DNA of 64,000 bases from Chitinophaga polysaccharea (GTDB lineage: Bacteria > Bacteroidota > Bacteroidia > Chitinophagales > Chitinophagaceae), in the NCBI RefSeq assembly GCF_902150045.1, contig NZ_CABFVU010000001.1, forward strand, positions 248,001-312,000, in the 5' to 3' direction. Shown piece after piece: positions 38,283-51,178 of the stretch; within the stretch, counting starts at the first letter, position 1, and the number at the start of each line of letters is the position of its first letter. The notes beneath the pieces were generated by a model. It ran no database searches. It saw nothing but the letters and a program-made list of their open reading frames with translations, and was not told the DNA's origin. The translations under genes were made by a program, and so were the position numbers.

Positions 38283-40814
38283 TTACTGACCTACCAGGAA
38301 AACTGCATTACTGAACAACAGTTTGCCGTTTTCCCAGAAACTTCTGAATAAAGGATTATCTGCCAGTATGATGACGGAACCGCTGCCTATTTCCTTTACA
38401 CCAAACAACAGCCCGTCTTTCAACTGTTGCCGGGTGGATGCGCCTACAAAGCCCGCGAGGTAGCTGTCTTTCTTCAACACGCCTACATTCCAGCCCCCAT
38501 TCTCAATAAACTCATACAAATGGGCATCCTGCTTCAGCGTATAATAAAATGCAGGATAACCAAATGCCAGCGGGTGAGTAGTATCCAATTGCACTTTATA
38601 GATAGCGCCGGGAATAAACTGTTTAATGCTTTCCCGTTCTCTGTTGGCATATGGTTTCAGGGCTTCATACGGACGCGCAGCAGCCGCTTTCTCTTTTGCT
38701 TCTTTATCCTTTTCTTCTTCTTTCTTCAGCTTAATGCCCCAGTCGGCCCCGGCCACCTGCACCGCTGCTGATTCCAGTGCAATCAGCTTCCCTCCGTTAT
38801 TCACCCACTCTTTCAGTTTATCAGTAGCTGCTTTATCTTCAAATATTTTATAATCCCCGTCGGCTAAAATCAGCACATCTGTCTGATCCCAGTTGATATC
38901 TTCCACATTTCGTTCATCCACTACCGTTATGGGGAAATCCAGCTGCTGTTCAAAGAAATGCCATATTTCTCCCATACCCAGGGAAGAGATGCCTCTTCCG
39001 GCCAGCAGCGTAACTTCCGGCTTACGGATAAAGCGGATCTTATCGGAGCCAAAGTCCATCCCTTTATCTACAAAACCAGTGGTGACTGCATCCAGTGAAA
39101 TCTTGAAATGATTGGCCTGCATGGTAATAAAACGATCGAACTGGTCGCCTTTTGCAGTGTTTCCCGAACGGGTAATCACAAGCGTTCCCGCCGGGTAATC
39201 CTTACCCCCGGCGGTGAAGGGCGTTTCCGTAAATCTTACTTTAATATCATTTTGCAGTAGTGACGATAAGAATTTCACGTCGCGTAAACTGTTCCATTTA
39301 GCGAGATAAGCATATGGTTTCTGTGCCGACAAAGGCGTGTTATTACGCGCTGCCGGTGCATCTGTCACCGGTGTTAACGGTTGTTTTACCGCATAGGAAG
39401 TTAACCCGTATGCATAAGGCAAAGCCCATGCGGTGATATCATAAGTAACAGAATCAGTTAAGCGGGACACCGGTTCAAACAGCACGCGCAGCATATTGGA
39501 ATGCGGCTGATAGGCATTGATCACCAGGTCTTCTTTGTCAATCGTAAACGTTTCCGTTTTACCTGTAAAATAATTGAACCCACTGGCGCTGCCGGTACTG
39601 GCGCCGAAGCCAACGCTGATATTATTTTTACGCAGCAGCTCCGCCAGCGTATTGAGCTTCTCTGTATTGCCCCCGGCTTTCACCACATACGATTTATACC
39701 CACCCTGCGGCGTTTTCTGCGCGGCTTCAAAATACTGTGCATACTCGCTGAGGATCTTTGCCGCCTGCTGTGATGCCACTTCAACGGTAGACATGCTGGT
39801 AGCAAAATGATGCGCGATCCGGTCGGTCAGAGTAAGCGTATCACCATCCCTTTTCAGTACGGCTACGCCGGCTCTTCCGCTTCCGCCCTGCTCGTACGTC
39901 ATACCAATAGCGCCGTTGTACATAGGATAGGTATCACCATAACTGGGATAGAAAAGATCAAAACGTTCCTTGGTAAAATACAGCCAGCCCTGTTCATCAA
40001 AATACTTCGCATTATTTTTCCCGATGAGCACCTGCAGCTGCCGCTGCCAGGGAGTAATGGCATCATGAAAAGGTTCCGCCGCAGGCGCAAAATAATAAGG
40101 CGCCTCTATTTCCTGCTCATGGAAATCCACGTGCAGCTGCGGCATCCACTCGTTGTATTTTGCCACCCGCTGCTGCGATTCCTTTTGTGTTTGCCAGGCC
40201 CAGTCGCGGTTCAGGTCAAAGTAATAATGATTGGCCCTGCCGCCCGGCCAGGGCTCATTATGCTCTCTCGACCAGCGGTTTACATTGGGCGTAACGCTGC
40301 GGGTATTGTTATAAAAGCTCACGTATCTTTCACGGCCGTCGGGATTAAGACAGGGATCAATGATCACTACAGTGTTCTTCAGCCATTGCTGCGTTTGTGC
40401 GTTCCCGTTATTTACCAGCTCATACAGCGCTTTCATGGAAGCCTCCGTGGAAACCGCCTCATTACCATGTACATTATAGCTTAGCCATACAATTACCGGT
40501 TGGTTACCGGCGCTGTTGCCTTTTGCGTTAGACATATCCAGGCTGTGCTGCCGGATCTCCTCCAGCCGGCCGGCATTTTCAGGAGATGCTACAATAGCCA
40601 TCAGCAGCGGCCTGCCTTCATAGGTGGTCCCATACTGCTCCAGCTTTACATTCTTTGCTGTAGCTGCTACCTGCTTAAAATAATCCACCACCTTGTAATG
40701 TGGCGTAAACTGGGTGCCCAGGGGATAGCCGAGAAACTGGTCAGGTGTTGGCACCTGGGCCTCAGCAAAAAGAACGCCCAGCATAACAAAAGCCATTAAT
40801 AAAAATCTACGCAT
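38283..40814 (-). CDS. M14 family zinc metallocarboxypeptidase, secreted
   Basis: 843 residues with signal peptide MRRFLLMAFVMLGVLFAEA. Peptidase M14 domain about residues 40-350: zinc ligands in VHGNEAVST (HxxE) and HVDFHEQE, substrate-binding region CLNPDGRERYV and DLNRDWAWQT, catalytic Glu probably in MTYEQGGSG. The C-terminal half (about 600-843) has a glutamine-amidotransferase-like flavodoxin fold without obvious catalytic residues (TDVLILADGDYKIFEDKA, GGKLIALESA). It likely degrades peptides in the periplasm or outside. Divergent from the gamma-glutamyltransferase, 126 bp apart. Confidence 0.88.
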   Translation of the reverse strand: MRRFLLMAFVMLGVLFAEAQVPTPDQFLGYPLGTQFTPHYKVVDYFKQVAATAKNVKLEQYGTTYEGRPLLMAIVASPENAGRLEEIRQHSLDMSNAKGNSAGNQPVIVWLSYNVHGNEAVSTEASMKALYELVNNGNAQTQQWLKNTVVIIDPCLNPDGRERYVSFYNNTRSVTPNVNRWSREHNEPWPGGRANHYYFDLNRDWAWQTQKESQQRVAKYNEWMPQLHVDFHEQEIEAPYYFAPAAEPFHDAITPWQRQLQVLIGKNNAKYFDEQGWLYFTKERFDLFYPSYGDTYPMYNGAIGMTYEQGGSGRAGVAVLKRDGDTLTLTDRIAHHFATSMSTVEVASQQAAKILSEYAQYFEAAQKTPQGGYKSYVVKAGGNTEKLNTLAELLRKNNISVGFGASTGSASGFNYFTGKTETFTIDKEDLVINAYQPHSNMLRVLFEPVSRLTDSVTYDITAWALPYAYGLTSYAVKQPLTPVTDAPAARNNTPLSAQKPYAYLAKWNSLRDVKFLSSLLQNDIKVRFTETPFTAGGKDYPAGTLVITRSGNTAKGDQFDRFITMQANHFKISLDAVTTGFVDKGMDFGSDKIRFIRKPEVTLLAGRGISSLGMGEIWHFFEQQLDFPITVVDERNVEDINWDQTDVLILADGDYKIFEDKAATDKLKEWVNNGGKLIALESAAVQVAGADWGIKLKKEEEKDKEAKEKAAAARPYEALKPYANRERESIKQFIPGAIYKVQLDTTHPLAFGYPAFYYTLKQDAHLYEFIENGGWNVGVLKKDSYLAGFVGASTRQQLKDGLLFGVKEIGSGSVIILADNPLFRSFWENGKLLFSNAVFLVGQ

Positions 40815-40940: not shown

Positions 40941-42647
40941 ATGCGTTTCCTTATCATGCTGGGAATGACGGTATGCACATTACACACCGCCTGTGCCCAG
41001 CAAACAACGGATAAACTACATCCTTACGACTATAGTATTGAGAAAGATATTAAGGTATTACACGGCGCAGTTGTATCTGCACATCCGCTGGCAAGCCGCG
41101 TAGGCGCTATTGTACTGCAACAGGGCGGCAATGCTGTAGATGCTGCCATTGCCACCCAGCTGGCGCTGGCCGTGGTATATCCCGGCGCCGGTAATATCGG
41201 CGGCGGCGGCTTTCTTGTGGGCCATTTGAAAAACGGGCGCAATATCGCTATCGACTACCGGGAAACCGCGCCGGCAAAGGCACACAGGGATATGTACCTG
41301 GACTCTCTCGGTAATCCCATCACCCAGTTAAGCCTGGACGGGCACCTCGCTGCAGGCGTACCGGGCACCGTGGCCGGTTTATTCGCCTCCATGAAATATG
41401 CTAAACTGCCTTTTTCCAAACTGATAGATCCCGCCATACGCCTGGCAGAAAAAGGCTTTGTGATCACCGCCTTGGAGGCTGCAGGGCTTAATAGCGCCAG
41501 GGCCGATTTCGAGAGACTTAATACCACTAAAACCGTCTTTGTAAGGGAACAACCCTGGAAAGCCGGCGACACCCTGGTGCAGAAAGAACTGGCTCATACG
41601 CTCACGCTTATACGAAATAAAGGAGCCGCAGGATTTTACCAGGGAGAAACCGCTGCCAGCATAGTAGCAGAAATGAAACGTGGCAACGGCATCATAACAC
41701 TGCAGGATCTCAAAAATTATAAATCAAAAGAAAGGACCGCCGTAACCTTTAACTATAAAGGCTATACGATTGTAACCATGCCCCCGCCATCCAGTGGCGG
41801 CATTTGCCTGCAACAGCTGATGGGTATGGTGGAAAACTACCCCATCTCTCAATGGGGCTTCCAGTCGCCACAGGCCGTTCAGCTGATGGTGGAAGCAGAA
41901 AGACGCGCCTATGCCGACCGGGCCCGGTTTCTCGGCGACCCCGATTTCGTGAAAGTACCTTTCTCCCAGCTCACAAGCAAAAAATACCTCGCTGCCCGCA
42001 TGCAGGATTTTACACCAGGCAAGGCCGGCTCCAGCGAACAAACAAAAGCAGGGGTACTTCCTGAAAGCGAAGAAACCACCCACCTCAGCATCATAGATGC
42101 CGACGGTAATGCCGTAGCGGTAACCACTACCCTCAACGGCCACTTCGGCAGCAGAACAGTAGCAGGTAAAGCGGGCTTCCTGCTGAATAATGAAATGGAC
42201 GACTTCAGCGCTAAGCCAGGCGTGCCTAATATGTACGGACTGGTAGGCACGGAAGCCAATGCCATTGCTCCTGCCAAACGCATGCTCAGTTCCATGACGC
42301 CAACCCTGGTACTGCAAAAAAATGAAGTGCTGTACTCCCTGGGTACACCCGGTGGCTCCACTATCATTACCTCTGTTTTCCAAACGTTGATGAATACACT
42401 GGAATTTGGCCTCACGCCATCAGAAGCCATCAACAAACCCAAGTTCCATCACCAGTGGCTGCCCGATGAAATTGCCGTGGAAAACGGGTTCCCCGACAGC
42501 ACCATCCAGGCGCTGGAAGGAATGGGCTACAAGGTGGTAAAACGCGGCCCCATAGGCCGTACAGAAATTATTAAAAGAGCGCCTGAAAGCCGCTACCTGG
42601 AAGCTTCCGGTGATAAGCGCGGCGACGACAGCGCTGCAGGATATTAA
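40941..42647 (+). CDS. ggt: Gamma-glutamyltransferase
   Basis: Periplasmic N-terminal-nucleophile hydrolase that transfers or hydrolyses the gamma-glutamyl group of glutathione-like compounds. 568 residues, signal peptide MRFLIMLGMTVCTLHTACAQ. Autoprocessing site TTHLSIIDADGNAVAV, with the catalytic Thr near residue 379 becoming the new N-terminus of the small subunit. GGNAVDAAIATQLAL, GNIGGGGFLV, PPPSSGGICLQQLM and SSMTPTLVLQ are conserved blocks. First gene of a four-gene plus-strand cluster; the next gene begins 15 bp later. Confidence 0.94.
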   Translation: MRFLIMLGMTVCTLHTACAQQTTDKLHPYDYSIEKDIKVLHGAVVSAHPLASRVGAIVLQQGGNAVDAAIATQLALAVVYPGAGNIGGGGFLVGHLKNGRNIAIDYRETAPAKAHRDMYLDSLGNPITQLSLDGHLAAGVPGTVAGLFASMKYAKLPFSKLIDPAIRLAEKGFVITALEAAGLNSARADFERLNTTKTVFVREQPWKAGDTLVQKELAHTLTLIRNKGAAGFYQGETAASIVAEMKRGNGIITLQDLKNYKSKERTAVTFNYKGYTIVTMPPPSSGGICLQQLMGMVENYPISQWGFQSPQAVQLMVEAERRAYADRARFLGDPDFVKVPFSQLTSKKYLAARMQDFTPGKAGSSEQTKAGVLPESEETTHLSIIDADGNAVAVTTTLNGHFGSRTVAGKAGFLLNNEMDDFSAKPGVPNMYGLVGTEANAIAPAKRMLSSMTPTLVLQKNEVLYSLGTPGGSTIITSVFQTLMNTLEFGLTPSEAINKPKFHHQWLPDEIAVENGFPDSTIQALEGMGYKVVKRGPIGRTEIIKRAPESRYLEASGDKRGDDSAAGY

Positions 42648-42662
42648 TCTAAAAAGACTGAC

Positions 42663-43190
42663 ATGTCTATTCAATCTATTTATCTGCAAAGCGTGCTAAA
42701 ACGTTTTGAAATACACCGGGAGCTGGGTTTTAAAACCATACAGCGACTGAACAAAGACCAGCTCAACTGGCAACCGGAGGGAGCGCCCAACAGCATTACC
42801 ATGATCATTAAACACCTGCATGGTAATATGCTGTCGCGCTGGACTGATTTCCTTACCACAGACGGGGAAAAGCCGGGCCGTAACCGCGACCAGGAATTTG
42901 AGGAAGACAACTACAGTTATGAACAGATCCTGCAACTGTGGAATGAGGGCTGGGATTGCATGCTTACCGCCATTCGCGCCCTGCAGGACACGGATCTCGA
43001 CAGGACCGTATTTATCCGCAATGAACCTCATATTGTAATAGATGCTATCAACCGGCAGCTGGCACATGTGCCCTACCACGTTGGCCAGATTGTATACATC
43101 GGGAAAATGATCCTGAAAGATAAATGGGAAAGCCTGTCCATCCCCAAAGGCGGATCGGCAGCTTTCAATAAAGCAAAAACAGGGAACTGA
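42663..43190 (+). CDS. DinB/YfiT superfamily protein (DUF1572-like)
   Basis: 175 residues. Four-helix DinB-like fold with three-His-type metal site: IKHLHGNMLSRWTDFL supplies the first His region and AHVPYHVGQIVYIGKM the last. DUF1572-type ending DKWESLSIPKG. Relatives include thiol S-transferases that use bacillithiol or mycothiol; whether this one does is inference. It sits between gamma-glutamyltransferase and a small lipoprotein in a tight cluster (gaps 15 and 6 bp). Confidence 0.8.
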   Translation: MSIQSIYLQSVLKRFEIHRELGFKTIQRLNKDQLNWQPEGAPNSITMIIKHLHGNMLSRWTDFLTTDGEKPGRNRDQEFEEDNYSYEQILQLWNEGWDCMLTAIRALQDTDLDRTVFIRNEPHIVIDAINRQLAHVPYHVGQIVYIGKMILKDKWESLSIPKGGSAAFNKAKTGN

Positions 43191-43196
43191 TCATTC

Positions 43197-43619
43197 ATGA
43201 AAATATGTCACCTATTTGCCGTTATTACGGTATTCCTCCTGTTCGCCGCCTGCCAGGGGAAAAAGAACAATGAGCTGCTGATGAATAAAAAGTGGCGGGT
43301 ATACGATGTGAAAATTCCACCGGAATCGCCCATCAGCAATACGCAGTACATACAGGCACAGGACCTGAAGAAAGGTTATTACCGGGATGCTTATTACCAG
43401 TTCCTGGATAATAATGTATTTGTGGCCACCATTGCCGGCAGGTCCGACACCGGTAAATACTTTATTCTAAGCAACGGCGCCATGATCTCCGTTACTGCAA
43501 AAAACGGCGACCGCAAAGTGGAAAACCTCGTTACAGTTACCAGGCTTACGGAAGATTATTTCGATATGCAGGTAACCTCTACCGACTTCCAGTTTATTTT
43601 ATGTACGAAGAAAGAATAA
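43197..43619 (+). CDS. Small lipoprotein of unknown function
   Basis: 140 residues. Lipoprotein signal MKICHLFAVITVFLLFAAC with Cys anchor, then a lipocalin-like-sized beta-rich domain (LLMNKKWRVYDVKI, DAYYQFLDNNVFVATI, FDMQVTSTDFQFIL). The pattern MNKKWRVY...F..N resembles small Bacteroidota lipocalin-like stress lipoproteins, but this is weak. Located third in the ggt cluster. It ends five bases before the aminotransferase start used here. Confidence 0.7.
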   Translation: MKICHLFAVITVFLLFAACQGKKNNELLMNKKWRVYDVKIPPESPISNTQYIQAQDLKKGYYRDAYYQFLDNNVFVATIAGRSDTGKYFILSNGAMISVTAKNGDRKVENLVTVTRLTEDYFDMQVTSTDFQFILCTKKE

Positions 43620-43624
43620 CGGCT

Positions 43625-44677
43625 ATGTTGTATACGGATCATACACCCGGAAGAACAGTTTTACAGGAAGGCCGCAGCTGTCTTTTCTTTTCAGGGTTTG
43701 CCTACCTCGGGCTGCACCAGCTGCCTGCCTTCAAACAACTGCTGGCAGAAGGTATTGAAAAGTATGGCACCCTGTTTCCTTCTTCCAGGTCCGGCAACTT
43801 ACGGTTATCTATATACGAAGAAACAGAACATGCCCTTTGCACACATTTGAAGCAGCAATCAGCAGCCGTTTTTTCTTCCGGCTACCTGGCATCCCAGGCC
43901 GCCGTACAATACGCAGTGAGCAACAGGCAGCCACTGTATGCACCGGATGCGCACCCTTCGCTGTGGTACCAGCAGCCGGTGCTGCCGGATATGAGCCGGG
44001 AAGAATGGATCATCCATACAATAGAACAGGTGAATGCACACCCGGATCATCATTTTGTGATCATCACTGATACCGTAAATCCGCTTACAGGCGCCATCCA
44101 TCCTTTCCACTGGCTGCAGGAGCTGCAGCGCAAGGTACTGGTACTGGCAGATGATTCACACGGCATCGGCATATTAGGTCCCGACGGGCAGGGCGCTATT
44201 CATTTTTTACCGGAAACCCCGTGTGTAAGATACCTGCTCTCCGCCTCACTGGCAAAGGCCTACAGCGTTGCCGGCGGGATTGTTGCCGGTCATGCTGCAG
44301 ATATCACGGCAGTGAAAAAACTGCCCGTCTTTTCAGGCAGTACTCCCATGATACCGATGCATGCCCATGCCTGGTTGCATTCAGGAGATCTCGCTGCAAA
44401 AATGCGCAGGTCATTACAACAAAACATCGCTTACTTCCTTCATCTTACCGCCAATACCGTGGTGCATAACCCGCATGGCCTCCCCATGTTCATCCTGCCT
44501 CCGGACGACGCGCTGGTGCATTACCTGCACGACCGGGACGTTATTATTTCCAGCTTTCCCTATCCGCAGCCACACAGCCCGGTGATTAACAGGGCAGTGG
44601 TTTCTGCACTGCACCTGCAGGAAGATATAGCAACACTGCACCAGTTCCTGCAGGAGTTCGGGATCACCAAAGTATAG
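43625..44677 (+). CDS. Class II PLP-dependent enzyme, alpha-oxoamine-synthase-like
   Basis: 350 residues, fold-type I. Matches the 8-amino-7-oxononanoate synthase / 2-amino-3-ketobutyrate ligase family: PSSRSGNLRLSIYEETEHAL, LADDSHGIGILGPDGQG (usually DEAHGTG), and the Schiff-base Lys in SASLAKAYSVAGGIV near residue 211. These changes from the standard motifs mean the acyl-CoA specificity is not assured, and no bio genes are present. The ATG at 43601 (eight residues earlier) overlaps the preceding gene; either start is possible. Last gene of the cluster. Confidence 0.8.
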   Translation: MLYTDHTPGRTVLQEGRSCLFFSGFAYLGLHQLPAFKQLLAEGIEKYGTLFPSSRSGNLRLSIYEETEHALCTHLKQQSAAVFSSGYLASQAAVQYAVSNRQPLYAPDAHPSLWYQQPVLPDMSREEWIIHTIEQVNAHPDHHFVIITDTVNPLTGAIHPFHWLQELQRKVLVLADDSHGIGILGPDGQGAIHFLPETPCVRYLLSASLAKAYSVAGGIVAGHAADITAVKKLPVFSGSTPMIPMHAHAWLHSGDLAAKMRRSLQQNIAYFLHLTANTVVHNPHGLPMFILPPDDALVHYLHDRDVIISSFPYPQPHSPVINRAVVSALHLQEDIATLHQFLQEFGITKV

Positions 44678-44680
44678 GCC

Positions 44681-44708
44681 TAAAAAAACGGGAAGTTGCC
44701 CTCCCGTT
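44681..44708. terminator. Bidirectional terminator between convergent genes
   Basis: Stem AACGGGA (44687-44693) / TCCCGTT (44702-44708). On the minus strand a T-run follows (A at 44682-44688), and on the plus strand CTCTTCTG, so it is stronger for the minus-strand SusCD operon. Confidence 0.75.
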
Positions 44709-44730: not shown

Positions 44731-45720
44731 TTAAGGCGTTACTTTTACTGTTTTAGGCATCCTCAGCTCCACCACATAGGTACCGGCTTTCATCAACCGG
44801 AAGGCAAACAACGGGTTTACGCTACCTACTTTGGCCGATATATTTTTATCTACCGATACATAAGCAGAAGGAATACGGTAATACATCAGGTAATTCCAGT
44901 TGGTACCGCCGCTGGAGTAACGGCTCAGCGGGAACGGCGCAATCTCGAAATTACAGATCATAGCCGTATCTGTATATTCAATCGGATGGAACTTGGTATA
45001 GTTTTCAAAAATGGGGCGGTCGCCACGCTTAATGATCTCTCCCTTTTTCGGGTTGAATGGCTTACCATCTTTATCCGTTATTTTCAGGATCACGGAAGCC
45101 CCGCTTTCATTGACCCTGGTAATTGTCATTACCGGCGCGCCCATTGGCACAGTAGCAGAACCATCATCCGGGAAGAAATTACAGTTGGCGGTGGTTTCAG
45201 TAACCAGTGGCGGATCAACGGTAGTGAGCATACCAATGTTCTTATACACTTTTGAGCCCGCCACATTGGATACCTCCACGTCATACTCATAGGTAACATC
45301 CAGCGGTAAGCTATCCGTAGCGCCGTTGAACACAAACTGGCCGCTGGACAGGAATACATATGGCTGCATTTTTTTCAGCTCCCGTTTTTTATTCACCAGC
45401 TCAATGGTAGTATCCTTTGCAGGATCTACCGCTGCCGTATATACGTAAACAGGATATTCTTTATAAAATTCATCTGCATGCTTTTTATTATCCGCTCTCC
45501 TGATGTCCAGCAGCTTCACGGTCATGGGCTGGGTAGTGCCATCTGCAAGGATAGCGCTTGTTTTCTGGAATGCGTTACCACGTTGTACCTTAATCGGGGT
45601 ATCCGGTACATACAGGCCATCGCTCAGAAAGCCTTCTTCTATCTTTTTACATCCCGCTATCAGCAGCCCAAGCAGCATGGCGGAGGTGAGCCATTTCTTT
45701 CCTTTATATTGATGCAACAT
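44731..45720 (-). CDS. SusCD-associated lipoprotein (DUF5007-like)
   Basis: 329 residues. Lipoprotein signal MLHQYKGKKWLTSAMLLGLLIAGC. Beta-rich, with DGLYVPDTPIKVQRGNAFQK near the N-terminus, SSGQFVFNGATDSLPLDVTYEYDV and a C-terminal YVVELRMPK. The domain set and position after SusC-SusD-fasciclin fit the DUF5007 group, but I am not certain. Surface ligand-binding lipoprotein by inference. ATG at 45720 is used rather than a TTG three codons upstream. Last gene of the operon. Confidence 0.65.
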   Translation of the reverse strand: MLHQYKGKKWLTSAMLLGLLIAGCKKIEEGFLSDGLYVPDTPIKVQRGNAFQKTSAILADGTTQPMTVKLLDIRRADNKKHADEFYKEYPVYVYTAAVDPAKDTTIELVNKKRELKKMQPYVFLSSGQFVFNGATDSLPLDVTYEYDVEVSNVAGSKVYKNIGMLTTVDPPLVTETTANCNFFPDDGSATVPMGAPVMTITRVNESGASVILKITDKDGKPFNPKKGEIIKRGDRPIFENYTKFHPIEYTDTAMICNFEIAPFPLSRYSSGGTNWNYLMYYRIPSAYVSVDKNISAKVGSVNPLFAFRLMKAGTYVVELRMPKTVKVTP

Positions 45721-45743
45721 AGTTTTCAATTTAATGATGATGA

Positions 45744-46418
45744 CTATTTCCAGTAGAACACATGGTTGTTTTGCAATACATGCAATACGCCTGTTTTTGT
45801 AATGATACCGGTGGTTTGCAGGGTATACTGGATATCCCTGTCTTCTTCAGGATAATCATCCGGGCGGGGATCAGGGTCCAGGCCGTTGATCACTTTGGTG
45901 AGCGCCATATACTTTACACCGGCAGAAAAAATATCATCATAACCGCCTGCTTTGATCAGCTTGAAAGCAAAGTCCTCATTCACTTTATTTTTATACACCT
46001 GCGATTCCAGTGAAAGATCAGCACGTACAATTTTCCCGTTAAAAACGTAAGCCAGCAGGGAGTCGCGCAGTTCAGGCGCCTTCAGGCTGTCGATGGTGTA
46101 CTTCACGTTCTCATCATTCAACTCCTTTTGCAGCTGCGTGGTCCGCACGCCCAGGAACTGTTTGATCGAGTAATCCGTAGGCGCTACAAAAGTGACATCG
46201 CTGTTGATGGTTTCTTTAAGCCCTGCTTTGTCGATCAGCAGGATCAGCGTATCAAAATTTGAATTTGCTTTGAGATAATCGTAAGTAGTAAGATCTGTAT
46301 GATCATTGGTAGGACTACCGCCCAGGAAATGATCGTCTTTTTTACAGGCGGCAAATAAGAGGGAGATCAGTAAGAAGCCCCAGCCAGCCTTCGCAGTAAA
46401 TATTTTCAGTTTGTTCAT
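45744..46418 (-). CDS. Fasciclin-domain lipoprotein
   Basis: 224 residues. Lipoprotein signal ending LLISLLFAAC. FAS1 domain: YLKANSNFDTLILLIDKAGL, VTFVAPTDYSIKQFL (the TVFAPTNxAF-type motif), LAYVFNGKIV and C-terminal TGIITKTGVLHVLQNNHVF. FAS1 domains mediate adhesion or ligand contact at the cell surface. Encoded between SusD and the DUF5007-like gene, 25 bp from SusD, so part of the same operon. Confidence 0.85.
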   Translation of the reverse strand: MNKLKIFTAKAGWGFLLISLLFAACKKDDHFLGGSPTNDHTDLTTYDYLKANSNFDTLILLIDKAGLKETINSDVTFVAPTDYSIKQFLGVRTTQLQKELNDENVKYTIDSLKAPELRDSLLAYVFNGKIVRADLSLESQVYKNKVNEDFAFKLIKAGGYDDIFSAGVKYMALTKVINGLDPDPRPDDYPEEDRDIQYTLQTTGIITKTGVLHVLQNNHVFYWK

Positions 46419-46443
46419 GTCAGTTCATTTAAGTGTCAGGATG

Positions 46444-48003
46444 CTATTTCACTTTACCGAGCCAGTAATCATTTTGTTTGAGCACACTGTTGTTGAGGAA
46501 CAACACGCGCCCTACCGGCCATTTCCAGCCACCGGCATCAAAGCGGTCCTGCGGGAAACCTGCCGCTGCATTCACGTCGCCATTCATCAGCATACGTGTA
46601 CGCACCAGGTCGTACCAGCGCTGGCCTTCTGCATATAGTTCGCGGGAGCGTTCCAGGAATGCTTCCACTTTAATATCGGTTACGTCTTCGGGTAAAATGG
46701 GGCTGGCCTGGGAGCGGGCTCTCACACGGTTAATATCCTGTAAGGCGGCGCCTGTATTTCCCTGGTCGGCATAGGCCTCAGCGCGCAGCAGCAGCAGGTC
46801 GGCATAACGCATCAGGATGATATTGGCGTCTACAGCAGCATCCGTGAAATTACCCGGATTGCGGTAGTTGATATTTTCCCGGTTGGGGCCTGCAAATTTG
46901 CAGATCAGTACATCATATTGCCCCGCTGCGTCGAGGTTGGTAAAGTAATAGTGACGGCGTAAATCGGTGCCATCTTCATCATACAGCAAATTGATCAGGT
47001 CAATATTCGGCGCATCTATTTTACTGTCCTTGTTGTTGATAAAAGGCGTTTTCAGGATGTTATAATAAAATCCCTTCTCCACCTGTTGCTCTCCGTTAGC
47101 CACCTGCATATTGATTTCAAATATGCCTTCCATTGATTTTCCGTGGAAGATCTTCGGGTACATCTCTGCCGGCAGCAACTGGTACTGACCGCTGTTCTCT
47201 ACGGAATCAATAGCGGCAATCGCATTGGTTACATCAGATACTACCTGTCCTTTGTTCAGGAAGTTTCTCCACATGTAAGCGTGTGCCAGTAACCCAAAAG
47301 CAGCGCCCCTGTTAGCTCTTACGGCTCTTTCAGTGCCGTTCTTATATTCCCAGGGCAAGAGGCTGATGGCCTTTTTAAGATCGGCAATACAGGTATCGAG
47401 GATGATCTTTTCATTGCTTCTCGGGATATTTTCCGATGTTACCGGGTTAGGATCATACTTCGTCACCAATGGCACATCGCCCCAGATACGCACCATATAG
47501 AAGTAGCTGAAAGCCCGCAGGAAATAGGCTTCTCCCAGGAAGCGGTTACGGGTGCGGGTGGGCTGATCAGTGAACTGTGCATCCGGGATATTGGGAATAT
47601 TATGCATCATAATATTCGCCTGGGTAATCACTTTGTAGTAGGGCGACCAGTCGTGATACTTCTCCAAATAAGAGCCCAGGAAATCAGCCGTATTCATACC
47701 ATCTCCACCTTTTACCAGGAACCTTACATCATACTGGTTATAGTCCGAGAACTCATATGCCGGCAATGAACCATACGCAAAATGCGACATGTTCTGATTA
47801 TAGTCCGTATTGGAAGTTAACGCCCTGCGCAGTAAGGCATAACCGCCTGCCACACCTTGCTCCGCATCCCGCTGGTTAGTCCAGAAAACAGAATTATAGG
47901 GAGAATTGATCGGCTCCTGGTCCAGCAGCTTCTTACAGGAAACAAACGGCGACAACAGCAGTCCTGCAGCTATTACCGTGAATATATTTTTCAGACAGTT
48001 CAT
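46444..48003 (-). CDS. RagB/SusD family outer-membrane lipoprotein (second operon)
   Basis: 519 residues. Lipoprotein signal ending LLLSPFVSC. SusD pattern KKLLDQEPINSPYNSVFWTN...AEQGVAGGYALLRRAL at the N-terminus; C-terminal RYADLLLLRAEAYADQGNTG and INRVRARSQ...LERSRELYAEGQRWYDLVRTR are SusD hallmarks. It forms a pair with the SusC gene 19 bp upstream. Ligand not predictable; no glycosidase is in the operon. Confidence 0.92.
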   Translation of the reverse strand: MNCLKNIFTVIAAGLLLSPFVSCKKLLDQEPINSPYNSVFWTNQRDAEQGVAGGYALLRRALTSNTDYNQNMSHFAYGSLPAYEFSDYNQYDVRFLVKGGDGMNTADFLGSYLEKYHDWSPYYKVITQANIMMHNIPNIPDAQFTDQPTRTRNRFLGEAYFLRAFSYFYMVRIWGDVPLVTKYDPNPVTSENIPRSNEKIILDTCIADLKKAISLLPWEYKNGTERAVRANRGAAFGLLAHAYMWRNFLNKGQVVSDVTNAIAAIDSVENSGQYQLLPAEMYPKIFHGKSMEGIFEINMQVANGEQQVEKGFYYNILKTPFINNKDSKIDAPNIDLINLLYDEDGTDLRRHYYFTNLDAAGQYDVLICKFAGPNRENINYRNPGNFTDAAVDANIILMRYADLLLLRAEAYADQGNTGAALQDINRVRARSQASPILPEDVTDIKVEAFLERSRELYAEGQRWYDLVRTRMLMNGDVNAAAGFPQDRFDAGGWKWPVGRVLFLNNSVLKQNDYWLGKVK

Positions 48004-48022
48004 ATCTTCTTCTTTTTAAAAA

Positions 48023-51000
48023 TTAAAAACCAACATTTACACCCAGGGTGAACTTACGTGGTATAGGATAACCTCCACCGGTGTAAGTACCTTTTTCGTC
48101 CACTGCTTCCGCATCGGGAACACTTGATTTCTGGAACATCTTTACATTGTCTACCACGCCATAGATCTGCAGCTTGCTGAGCTTAGCACGTTCCAGGAAC
48201 TTGGGACTGAACTGGTAAGCAAGGTTCAGGTATTTGATACGCAGGTAAGAACCATTTTCCACAAAGGCAGATGAAAAAGGAAGGAACTGGTAGTAATAAT
48301 GCTCGCTGTAAGGGATCACTTCCGCATACTTGCTGTTATCTCCTTCTTTGTGCCAGCTGTCGATAGAAGAAGGATCTATAGCAGCAATATTTGCGTAGTT
48401 ATTGGTTAGGCCGATAAGCCTGTCGGACATATACTTGTTGTAGATATCACGTTTAAGGGTAAACGTCATGTATACCTGCAGGCTCCAGGGACCATAGGAA
48501 AATGCGTTGGTAAAACCGCCGGTGCAGGCGGGGTTAGGATTACCGCTGCGTACTTTATCGTTCCAGTCCCACACATCATAGTCGCCGTTCTGGTCTTCCC
48601 AGATAAAGTCGCCCGCCTGCACAGTATGATTACCATTCCAGTAGGTAAGCTTTTCACCGGTGTAAGGGTTAAACGGAATATCTTTTTCGCTGGCGTATAC
48701 GCCTTTGTTCTTAATCAGGTAAAATTCGTTGATAGCGCGGCCTTTGGTAAGCACGTAGGTCATACTGGTGATGTTATCCGGCACCATCAGGTCGCGGTTA
48801 CCGTTGGGTAATTTAACGATCTGGTTTTTGATGAAAGATAAGATCAGGGTAGAATTCCACTGGAACTTGCTGGTAGGCGGCGTGATCCGGCCCTGTATGG
48901 TAAATTCCACACCAGTGTTGCGCACATCCACCGCATTGGTATTCACTTTATCATACCCGGAAGTAGATGGCAGCAGCAGGTTAAACAGCAGTTTGGAAGT
49001 TCCCCTGTTAAACGCGTCGGCGGTAACGTTCAGTCTTCCGCCAAAGAAGCTTGCATCCACACCAATATTGGATTGAATAGCCTGTTCCCAGGTAAGCCCG
49101 TCCTGTGCCACACCATCAGAGAAGTTAGGCGTTACGGCATTCACACCGTTGTAGGTGCCGCCGGTAGATCCGCCATAGGTACCCTGGTTGATGCTGTAGT
49201 TATTATACTGGAGATAATATTGTTTTGGTAAGCTTCCTGTTACGCCATAGCTGCCGCGGATCTTGAAGTATTCCACCCAGCTTTTGAAAGGCGCCATAAA
49301 TGGTTCGTCTGAAAGGTTCCAGCCGGCAGATACGGAGGGGAAATAACCCCAGCGGCTGTTACGGCCAAAGCGGGAAGAGGCATCTGCACGGTAGGCAAAT
49401 GACAGCAGGTATTTCTCTTTATAGTTGTAGTTCACGCGGGAGAAAAAGGACAACATACCGGACGACTGGTAATCAGACCCGGAAACGAGGTTGTCATACA
49501 CATCCCTGTACATCATATAGCTGAGATTATATCCCTGCACTACTTTCACATTGTCGTTGCTCAATGCGCCGCTGCCAATGCCGGTAAATTCATTCCTGAT
49601 ATTGTTGATGGTATTACCCAGCAGCACATTCAGATGATGATCCTTATTCACCACATCAGTGGAATAGCTCAGGGTGTTATCGAGGTTCAGGTTCTCATAA
49701 CGCGATTTACCGCTTTGTGCATAAGATAATCCTGCAGTGTTCAGCTCTCCCGGTCTGAAAATATCGCGGGTATTGATGCTGGACTGAACGGAGCCTATTG
49801 AGGAGAAGCGCAGCTTTTTTGAAATATCATAGTTCACGGTAAGACTGGCAGTGATATCATCGTTGATGTTCTTATCACGGCCGGATTCCAGGTCGCCGGT
49901 GAAGTTTTTGCGGTCAATATCTGAGATATTAAAGAGAGAGGAAAGATACTGGCCGTTTACCAGCGGGATCACATTCTCTCCCGGGAATACGCCACGGCCG
50001 CGGGATCTGTCGCCACGGCTCAAACGGAACAGGGAAGAAACATTCAAACGGGACGACATTTTCACGCCCATGGCAGCGGAAATGGTATAGCGTTTAAAGC
50101 CGGTTCCGCGAATGGTTCCATCTTCATTATAATAGTTGCCACTGATACGGTAGTTGGTAGTTTCTGATGCGCCGGAAACAGACAGGTCGTAGTTCTGGAT
50201 GATACCGTTCTGGTAAAAAAGATCCTGCCAGTCGACCGCCCCGCTGAAAGCGGGATTGAGGCTGTCTGTCAGCATCATGGGAATATTATTCACTTTCTGC
50301 TGGTCGGAAAGATACTTTTGCAGGTAGTCCATTTTGAACCATCTTTCTTCCGCGCCGCCGTATACCGTTTCAAATTTTGGTTGCTGGGTGAGCCCTGCAT
50401 AGGTGGAGAAGTTCACCTGCGGCTTGCCTTGTTTACCGCGTTTGGTTTTTACGATCACTACGCCGTTGGCGCCGCGGGAGCCATAAATAGCTGCAGCCGA
50501 CGCGTCTTTCAGGATGTCGATGGATTCAATATCATTGGGGTTCAGGCCGGCGATATAGTTGGTACCGGTGTTGTCAAATGCTGCGGCGTCATCCAGTGAT
50601 ACGGGGATATCGTCTATCACAAACAGCGGGGAGCTCAAAGTACGGGCGGCGCTGGCATCGCGGCTGATGGAGGTATTTCCCCTTACCACGAAGGAGCCTC
50701 TTACTCCCGGTTCGCCTGTAAAATTCTGTACGTTCAAACCGGCGGCACGGCCCTGCAGCAGTTGGTCGAAGCTGGGGGAAGGAAGGTTTTCGATGTCCTT
50801 GCCTTTTACGCTGGAAACCGCTGCCGTTACCGTTTTACGCCGTACCTCCTGGTACCCGATCACCACCACATCTTTCAGGCTTTTGGCATCCGGTTTCAGG
50901 GAAATAGTGTAAGATGCTTTCCCCGACAACACTAACGTTTGCGTTTCAAAACCTATAAATGAAATAGACAGTTTGTTGGAATTGCCTTTCAAGGTAAGCG

Positions 51001-51178
51001 TAAATTCGCCGCTGGGACTGGTGGCTGCACCGTTATTGGTACCTACTTCTTTTACAGATACGCCGGGTAAAGGCCCGCCTTTATCATCTGTAACTGTACC
51101 TGAAATTTTTCGCTCCTGGGCCCATGCCTGCAGGCATAGGAATCCCATCAGCACTAATAGTAGCAACTTTTTGTGCAT
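48023..51178 (-). CDS. SusC/RagA family TonB-linked outer-membrane transporter (second operon)
   Basis: 1051 residues. Signal peptide MHKKLLLLVLMGFLCLQAWA. Carboxypeptidase-regulatory domain RKISGTVTDDKGGPLPGVSV (about 22-105), SusC plug (VVVIGYQEVRRKTVTAAVSS, DASAAAIYGSRGANGVVIV) and a barrel ending KFTLGVNVGF. Unlike the SusC at 23399 it lacks an STN domain and has no adjacent FecR or sigma gene, so it must be controlled another way. Operon order: SusC, SusD, fasciclin, DUF5007-like. Confidence 0.93.
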   Translation of the reverse strand: MHKKLLLLVLMGFLCLQAWAQERKISGTVTDDKGGPLPGVSVKEVGTNNGAATSPSGEFTLTLKGNSNKLSISFIGFETQTLVLSGKASYTISLKPDAKSLKDVVVIGYQEVRRKTVTAAVSSVKGKDIENLPSPSFDQLLQGRAAGLNVQNFTGEPGVRGSFVVRGNTSISRDASAARTLSSPLFVIDDIPVSLDDAAAFDNTGTNYIAGLNPNDIESIDILKDASAAAIYGSRGANGVVIVKTKRGKQGKPQVNFSTYAGLTQQPKFETVYGGAEERWFKMDYLQKYLSDQQKVNNIPMMLTDSLNPAFSGAVDWQDLFYQNGIIQNYDLSVSGASETTNYRISGNYYNEDGTIRGTGFKRYTISAAMGVKMSSRLNVSSLFRLSRGDRSRGRGVFPGENVIPLVNGQYLSSLFNISDIDRKNFTGDLESGRDKNINDDITASLTVNYDISKKLRFSSIGSVQSSINTRDIFRPGELNTAGLSYAQSGKSRYENLNLDNTLSYSTDVVNKDHHLNVLLGNTINNIRNEFTGIGSGALSNDNVKVVQGYNLSYMMYRDVYDNLVSGSDYQSSGMLSFFSRVNYNYKEKYLLSFAYRADASSRFGRNSRWGYFPSVSAGWNLSDEPFMAPFKSWVEYFKIRGSYGVTGSLPKQYYLQYNNYSINQGTYGGSTGGTYNGVNAVTPNFSDGVAQDGLTWEQAIQSNIGVDASFFGGRLNVTADAFNRGTSKLLFNLLLPSTSGYDKVNTNAVDVRNTGVEFTIQGRITPPTSKFQWNSTLILSFIKNQIVKLPNGNRDLMVPDNITSMTYVLTKGRAINEFYLIKNKGVYASEKDIPFNPYTGEKLTYWNGNHTVQAGDFIWEDQNGDYDVWDWNDKVRSGNPNPACTGGFTNAFSYGPWSLQVYMTFTLKRDIYNKYMSDRLIGLTNNYANIAAIDPSSIDSWHKEGDNSKYAEVIPYSEHYYYQFLPFSSAFVENGSYLRIKYLNLAYQFSPKFLERAKLSKLQIYGVVDNVKMFQKSSVPDAEAVDEKGTYTGGGYPIPRKFTLGVNVGF

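Follow-up and report, generated by a model that had tools for sequence, protein, structure and literature searches.

Why does a gene for a pyridoxal phosphate (PLP) enzyme resembling the biotin protein BioF stand last in a cluster that also encodes a gamma-glutamyltransferase (GGT), a DUF1572 protein and a small lipoprotein, and what might this enzyme do? The cluster lies in a stretch of 64,000 nucleotides of the soil bacterium Chitinophaga polysaccharea (the window, C1:248001-312000), whose genome comprises 7.6 Mb in 8 contigs; its features are collected in Table 1. We found that the PLP enzyme represents a clade of the alpha-oxoamine-synthase fold that is distinct from BioF, and from the Kbl and SPT-like proteins of the same genome, and that is present in several Bacteroidota families. 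With a little less than even confidence, we favour a reading in which the enzyme helps to recover amino acids from gamma-glutamyl or murein-derived peptides, the four genes being, very probably, a conserved Chitinophaga operon.

The PLP protein had no Pfam match at E 0.001 and scored 99.4 bits against the BioF model TIGR00858, far under the cut-off of 426.45 bits. Among solved structures, the profile of its clade matched E. coli BioF (1bs0) best, at 152 bits and over almost the full length, with further matches to SPT, cysteate-C-fatty acyltransferase and CqsA. Enzymes of the alpha-oxoamine-synthase family join amino acids and acyl thioesters in a decarboxylative condensation, and their active site contains a PLP-binding Lys, an Asp, two His and a carboxylate-binding Arg. 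The corresponding residues of the window protein, H110, D176, H179, K211 and R323, were invariant across all 27 rows of a broad clade alignment and map to H133, D204, H207, K236 and R361 of E. coli BioF. In contrast, other positions of the BioF site differ. Asn47 is replaced by Phe in the window protein and by Thr, Tyr or Phe in the clade rows read, Ser179 by Pro in the window protein and most clade rows, and Arg349 is also replaced; Glu175 corresponds to Asp149 in the window protein and in all 22 Chitinophaga rows, and commonly to Asn elsewhere in the clade. The window protein is also shorter than E. coli BioF (350 versus 384 aa). Because of this pattern of kept and replaced residues, the comparison argues for a working enzyme that would still bind the carboxylate of an amino acid, in an altered pocket.

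A tree of 50 rows, computed with a quick method and SH-like approximate likelihood ratio (SH-aLRT) support rather than bootstrap, grouped all 36 PLP rows together and, separately, the 12 BioF rows, both groups having a support of 100 and standing apart from Kbl and SPT (the SPT row being a long branch). A first protein search had suggested that the PLP gene was restricted to Chitinophaga, which a profile search overturned. At E 1e-30, a profile built on 22 PLP proteins from Chitinophaga matched 63 of 396 genomes in a search of the order; after one match was set aside as a paralogue (G096, 115.8 bits, 405 aa), 62 genomes were left, comprising 13 of Chitinophaga (the window genome included) and 49 others. 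A search at the level of the class found the clade in no fewer than 31 of the 396 genomes sampled, with a gap between members (at least 289.8 bits; G159 is split into two parts) and the remaining matches listed (at most 155.4 bits). In both searches generally 5 candidates were scored per genome, and the genome counts for the clade are lower bounds. The class set used below consists of 28 loci beyond those already counted: L211 and L212 were dropped as repeats of counted genomes, and the split member G159 was excluded, having been counted in the order set as L186.

The initial annotation had proposed a non-biotin role for the PLP enzyme on the strength of its motif changes, and the separate clade bears this out. 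Its proposal would have fallen had the enzyme been proven to be BioF in a genome lacking another bioF, but a second candidate (L014) was found at C4:391203-392318. L014 scored 351.7 bits to TIGR00858, which is itself under the cut-off, and the genome's own Kbl scored 368.3 bits. As a control, we searched 149 order genomes with L014 at E 1e-70; 62 matched, and 30 of these 62 loci were examined. Of the 30, 16 have bioB within 1.5 kb and 14 have bioA; in one locus (L245), a protein of the AAA_26 family, to which BioD belongs, lies between BioF and BioA. Among the six control loci of family f1, which we take as Chitinophagaceae, bioB adjoins one. L014 adjoins neither bioA nor bioB, so its naming as BioF rests on kinship. 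Beside the PLP gene, bioA or bioB was found in none of 149 PLP-clade loci. Since the control group adjoins bioA and bioB and the PLP clade is separate from it, L014 is the BioF candidate of this genome and the window enzyme is not BioF. The biotin genes of the genome are scattered (L012, L126, L014), with bioA at C1:236800 (~54 kb off), bioB at C1:554677 (~263 kb off) and the BioF candidate on contig 4. BioF is the profile to which proteins of the PLP clade come closest, and they could be mistaken for it despite their separate lineage and changed active site.

Table 1. Features of the four-gene cluster and its 3' end, in window positions
Feature	Position	Strand	Remarks
Gamma-glutamyltransferase (GGT)	40941..42647	+	568 aa; PF01019 + TIGR00066
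DUF1572 protein, DinB/YfiT-like fold	42663..43190	+	175 aa; PF07609 225.5 bits, PF12867 (DinB_2) 48.2 bits, both above cut-off
Small lipoprotein	43197..43619	+	140 aa; Cys19 predicted, by eye, to carry the lipid
BioF-like alpha-oxoamine-synthase-fold PLP enzyme	43625..44677 (alternative start 43601)	+	350 aa
Terminator-like hairpin	44687..44708	+	directly 3' of PLP gene, between convergent genes; weak

To the four genes, all on one strand, the initial annotation had assigned gaps of 15, 6 and 5 bp, which are exact when the last gene starts at its second ATG; the longer reading frame of 358 aa would overlap the lipoprotein gene by 19 bp. We fetched 69 congeneric neighbourhoods, covering ~6 kb upstream and ~3 kb downstream. 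GGT, lipoprotein and PLP genes were found in the same order and on the same strand in 69 of 69, and the DUF1572 gene was also present in 68. With three further congeners, in all of which the lipoprotein gene is present, the GGT and PLP genes adjoin in all 72 of the other Chitinophaga loci and DUF1572 is present in 71. The GGT frame is interrupted in one locus (L094, from a 530-contig assembly). An orthologue of the PLP gene is carried by 70 of 72 congeneric genomes, the window genome included, G004 and G008 being those without it, and the PLP proteins of four named Chitinophaga relatives are 72-84% identical to the window protein. The flanks are looser: within the stretches fetched, a gene for an M14 carboxypeptidase lies upstream in 47 of the 69 congeners and a DUF5007 gene downstream in 17. 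Because these flanking genes vary, the unit is tighter than its surroundings. The four genes very probably form a Chitinophaga operon: the single unit claimed earlier is conserved across the genus (71 of 72 loci complete), and we infer that it is co-transcribed. The sole Chitinophaga exception, L089 (G040), keeps GGT, lipoprotein and PLP genes, and no DUF1572 match was found elsewhere in that genome at E 1e-35.

The conservation of gene order that was to be checked in other genomes thus held within Chitinophaga, but the four genes do not form a single ancient unit: outside the genus, the PLP gene lacks GGT in 67 of 77 loci. We counted as beside the PLP gene any gene within 1.5 kb, and dipeptide epimerase genes also had to be on the same strand. 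In f1 outside Chitinophaga (21 loci), the PLP gene has GGT and DUF1572 as neighbours in 10, DUF1572 without GGT in 3, TamB only in 1 and no named neighbour in 7. In other families (labelled f18, f36, f59, f68, f73 and f86), the commonest annotated companion is a dipeptide epimerase, found in 31 of 56 loci, the 31 falling in 22 genera and four families (f18 16/28, f73 11/11, f86 3/4, f36 1/5) and placed upstream of the PLP gene in 30 of the 31 (in f18, 15 upstream and 1 downstream). A beta-lactamase-like gene is near the PLP gene in 12 loci outside f1 (f18 7/28, f36 4/5, f86 1/4), an S66 LD-carboxypeptidase gene in 9 of 28 f18 loci and a PBP4 gene in 4 of 7 f59 loci. Each neighbour family was identified from between one and three of its members. 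The epimerase belongs to the enolase superfamily, with 3iji/3ijl/3ijq as best solved matches of one representative (251 bits), and single representatives identified the S66 protein (PF02016, 139 bits), PBP4 (PF02113, 132 bits) and the beta-lactamase-like protein (PF13354, 52 bits). In contrast, epimerase, S66, PBP4, beta-lactamase-like, GGT or DUF1572 genes stood beside BioF in 0 of the 30 control loci. A role in peptide recycling is therefore read from the neighbours of the clade.

These arrangements resemble the ykfABC-type recycling genes of Bacillus in that the S66 LD-carboxypeptidase and dipeptide epimerase genes precede the PLP gene in 9 of 28 f18 loci; they differ in that neither gene is among the four in the window. 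The ykfABC type is a murein-peptide recycling unit with an LD-carboxypeptidase and an Ala-Glu epimerase, and it is not known to include a PLP enzyme.

The GGT of the cluster matches PF01019 (549 bits, cut-off 27) and TIGR00066 (546 bits, cut-off 358), which confirms its earlier naming, and a Sec-type signal peptide recognised by eye predicts that it is periplasmic. A TTH motif occupies residues 379-381, with Thr379 as the putative self-processing and catalytic residue and, presumably, the equivalent of E. coli Thr391. The protein thus shares with E. coli Ggt a TIGR00066 score above the cut-off and a signal peptide, but its operon partners, the DUF1572 protein, the lipoprotein and the PLP enzyme, set it apart. 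According to one report, bacterial GGTs accept D-glutamine as a donor and hydrolyse gamma-D-glutamyl-tryptophan (PMC8062742). Because GGTs accept gamma-D-glutamyl donors, the window GGT may, by analogy, act on gamma-D-glutamyl murein fragments. A second GGT gene of the genome, at C1:654787-656601, is one 665-aa frame that matches in two pieces, probably with an insertion.

In the pathway that we propose, the periplasmic GGT would cut gamma-glutamyl, and possibly gamma-D-glutamyl, bonds, and the amino acid or dipeptide set free would be taken up into the cell. There, the cytoplasmic PLP enzyme would form an external aldimine with its substrate through Lys211. The PLP ring would be held by His110 and Asp176/His179 and the substrate carboxylate by Arg323. 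The aldimine might then undergo a C-C bond reaction or exchange of the alpha-carbon proton. In other families, the same PLP clade would work in partnership with the dipeptide epimerase and murein carboxypeptidases. We infer the subcellular sites, the substrate, the reaction and the roles of the DUF1572 protein and the lipoprotein from the neighbourhood and the residues. A more specific version, which is possible but rather doubtful, is that the clade has a new activity of the oxoamine-synthase fold on an amino acid or dipeptide freed when murein (L-Ala-gamma-D-Glu) or gamma-glutamyl peptides are recycled, for instance racemising or cleaving it, after the epimerase in some families and after GGT in Chitinophagaceae. 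If peptide recycling is the role of the PLP enzyme, Bacteroidota would have an unrecognised PLP-dependent step in the turnover of their cell walls, and genomes carrying the clade would need care when biotin genes are annotated.

Several observations weigh against a role in peptide salvage. At the active site, the replacement of the Asn47 and Ser179 equivalents leaves several reactions compatible, and two AlphaFold models, built from 5-sequence alignments, were of low confidence (mean predicted local distance difference test scores of 37.3 and 39.7). The epimerase scored under every NCBIfam equivalog cut-off in three representatives, so that its substrate is itself a matter of deduction, and the one epimerase gene found downstream of the PLP gene (L207) is more divergent (368 versus 473-576 bits). 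No named neighbour was found within 1.5 kb in 7 of 21 loci of f1, 9 of 28 of f18, 3 of 7 of f59, 1 of 4 of f86 and 1 of 1 of f68, and most single neighbours of the clade carry no annotation. The control loci come mostly from other families, with 6 of 30 in f1 and none in f18 or f73. Two kinds of neighbour depart from the peptide theme: a glyoxalase-family gene precedes the PLP gene in four f36 loci (L224, L229, L231, L234; one scanned, the others at least 87% identical to it or to each other), and an OsmC gene follows it in two f73 loci (L228, L233; one scanned, the other 70% identical). Both families include thiol-related enzymes. Finally, the dipeptide epimerase that Chitinophaga itself encodes (C1:612322) is distant from the cluster.

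Other neighbours were off theme, namely a DUF1456 gene after the PLP gene in five f73 loci and an esterase-family gene between the PBP4 and PLP genes in two f59 loci, one of each kind having been scanned. We also considered, and rejected, the idea that GGT replaces a missing dipeptide epimerase. All 15 genomes tested, Chitinophaga included, had an epimerase match at E 1e-15; GGT is no stand-in because Chitinophaga encodes its own. In the literature we found nothing on the PLP clade or on its pairing with dipeptide epimerase, subscription papers lying mostly outside our coverage.

A serious rival to peptide salvage, and a real possibility, is that the PLP gene keeps company with GGT and DUF1572 by chance: the latter would be a stable family pair beside envelope genes, after which the PLP gene merely settled and became co-transcribed without a common pathway. 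DUF1572 was matched in 132 genomes of the order; of the best 30 loci, 27 belong to f1, and within 1.5 kb a GGT gene is present at 21 of the 30, a TamB gene at 12 and the PLP gene at 7. In 16 of the 30, GGT and DUF1572 occur together without the PLP gene, which also counts against peptide salvage, since the genes perhaps share no pathway. The variation of the clade's neighbours between families is likewise in keeping with chance companionship. On the other hand, 71 of 72 Chitinophaga loci retain all four genes between changing flanks, and the clade's neighbours elsewhere share a theme that none of the 30 BioF control loci shows. GGT-DUF1572 looks like the older pair in the family, which the PLP gene joined in some members. 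The lipoprotein is nearly confined to Chitinophaga, where it stands between this pair and the PLP gene. In other f1 genera (L283-L305), a TamB gene (PF04357, 155 bits in one representative) often takes the place 3' of GGT-DUF1572 that the lipoprotein and PLP genes occupy in Chitinophaga.

The initial annotation had raised a different explanation as a hypothesis: thiol conjugates would be processed by GGT together with an S-transferase of DinB type, and the amino acid released would serve the PLP enzyme. Its recognition of a DinB fold was correct, as curated profiles support it and the protein has the metal-binding type of His triad (H51, H135 and H139, identical in 7 of 7 alignment rows). With the bacillithiol S-transferases BstA-H, which have a DinB/YfiT fold, the DUF1572 protein shares the DinB clan, the three conserved His and the HxxxH spacing; it differs in belonging to the DUF1572 branch. 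DUF1572 is placed in the DinB clan (PMC4520260), and the metal-binding triad of B. subtilis BstA is given as H67, H160 and H164 (PMC5815605). The best solved relative of the protein was matched at E 0.004 only. We regard it as a putative metal-dependent enzyme, either S-transferase-like or a hydrolase.

Beyond the shared His triad, the thiol explanation draws on the glyoxalase-family and OsmC genes mentioned above and on the genome itself: it was correct that no bacillithiol synthesis gene lies at the cluster, but the genome encodes BshC elsewhere. Bacillithiol genes are known, and bacillithiol is predicted, in Bacteroidetes, and the thiol is made from glucosamine-malate (GlcN-malate) and Cys (PMC6282198). 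Because this composition lacks a gamma-glutamyl bond, GGT has nothing to cut in bacillithiol. Moreover, neither GGT nor DUF1572 is present in the stretches examined around the glyoxalase and OsmC genes, and the commonest annotated neighbours of the clade are peptide-related. With regard to glutathione, the sole gene found in the glutamate-cysteine ligase family GCS2 (PF04107) encodes a carboxylate-amine ligase of YbdK type (289.9 bits, cut-off 176), other gshA families lying outside this search. Thiol-conjugate processing is thus a weak proposal, and we consider it unlikely. The YbdK-type ligase gene itself (L311, C1:317271-318107) lies ~5 kb past the end of the window, between ATP-grasp (RimK-like) and class I amidotransferase-like genes, surroundings that resemble a peptide-ligase cluster.

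Synthesis of an aminoketone lipid or signal by the PLP enzyme, in the manner of SPT, cysteate acyltransferase or CqsA, is very unlikely. These enzymes have the same fold and their structures were matched, but the best solved match was E. coli BioF, an SPT-like protein is encoded separately at C2:627027, and no lipid or acyl-carrier gene was among the recurrent neighbour families annotated, most single neighbours being unannotated. That the PLP enzyme is BioF, or a second BioF, we reject as highly improbable: BioF is its nearest named family (99 bits), but the score is under the 426-bit cut-off, the clade is separate, another BioF candidate exists whose group adjoins bioA and bioB, and both these genes lie elsewhere in the genome and beside no PLP-clade locus.

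The lipoprotein had no Pfam family at E 0.001, and nothing reached a cut-off at a laxer limit; its lipobox-like Cys19 was identical in 70 of 70 rows. Outside Chitinophaga, it was found in 1 of the 49 order loci (L159), as a weak homologue of 95 bits that itself matched Lipocalin_4 at 16.7 bits, below the cut-off of 22.4 bits. The protein is possibly lipocalin-like.

A scan of promoters and terminators was at chance level, with 7 terminator-like sites against 4.8 +/- 2.0 expected. Upstream of GGT, positions 38283-40814 encode a divergent M14 zinc carboxypeptidase of 843 aa, and an M14 gene is also near 8 of 49 PLP loci outside the genus. Downstream and convergent with the cluster, positions 44731-51178 carry SusC/SusD-type genes, a fasciclin-like gene and a gene for a weakly DUF5007-like protein, all except the last named by eye.

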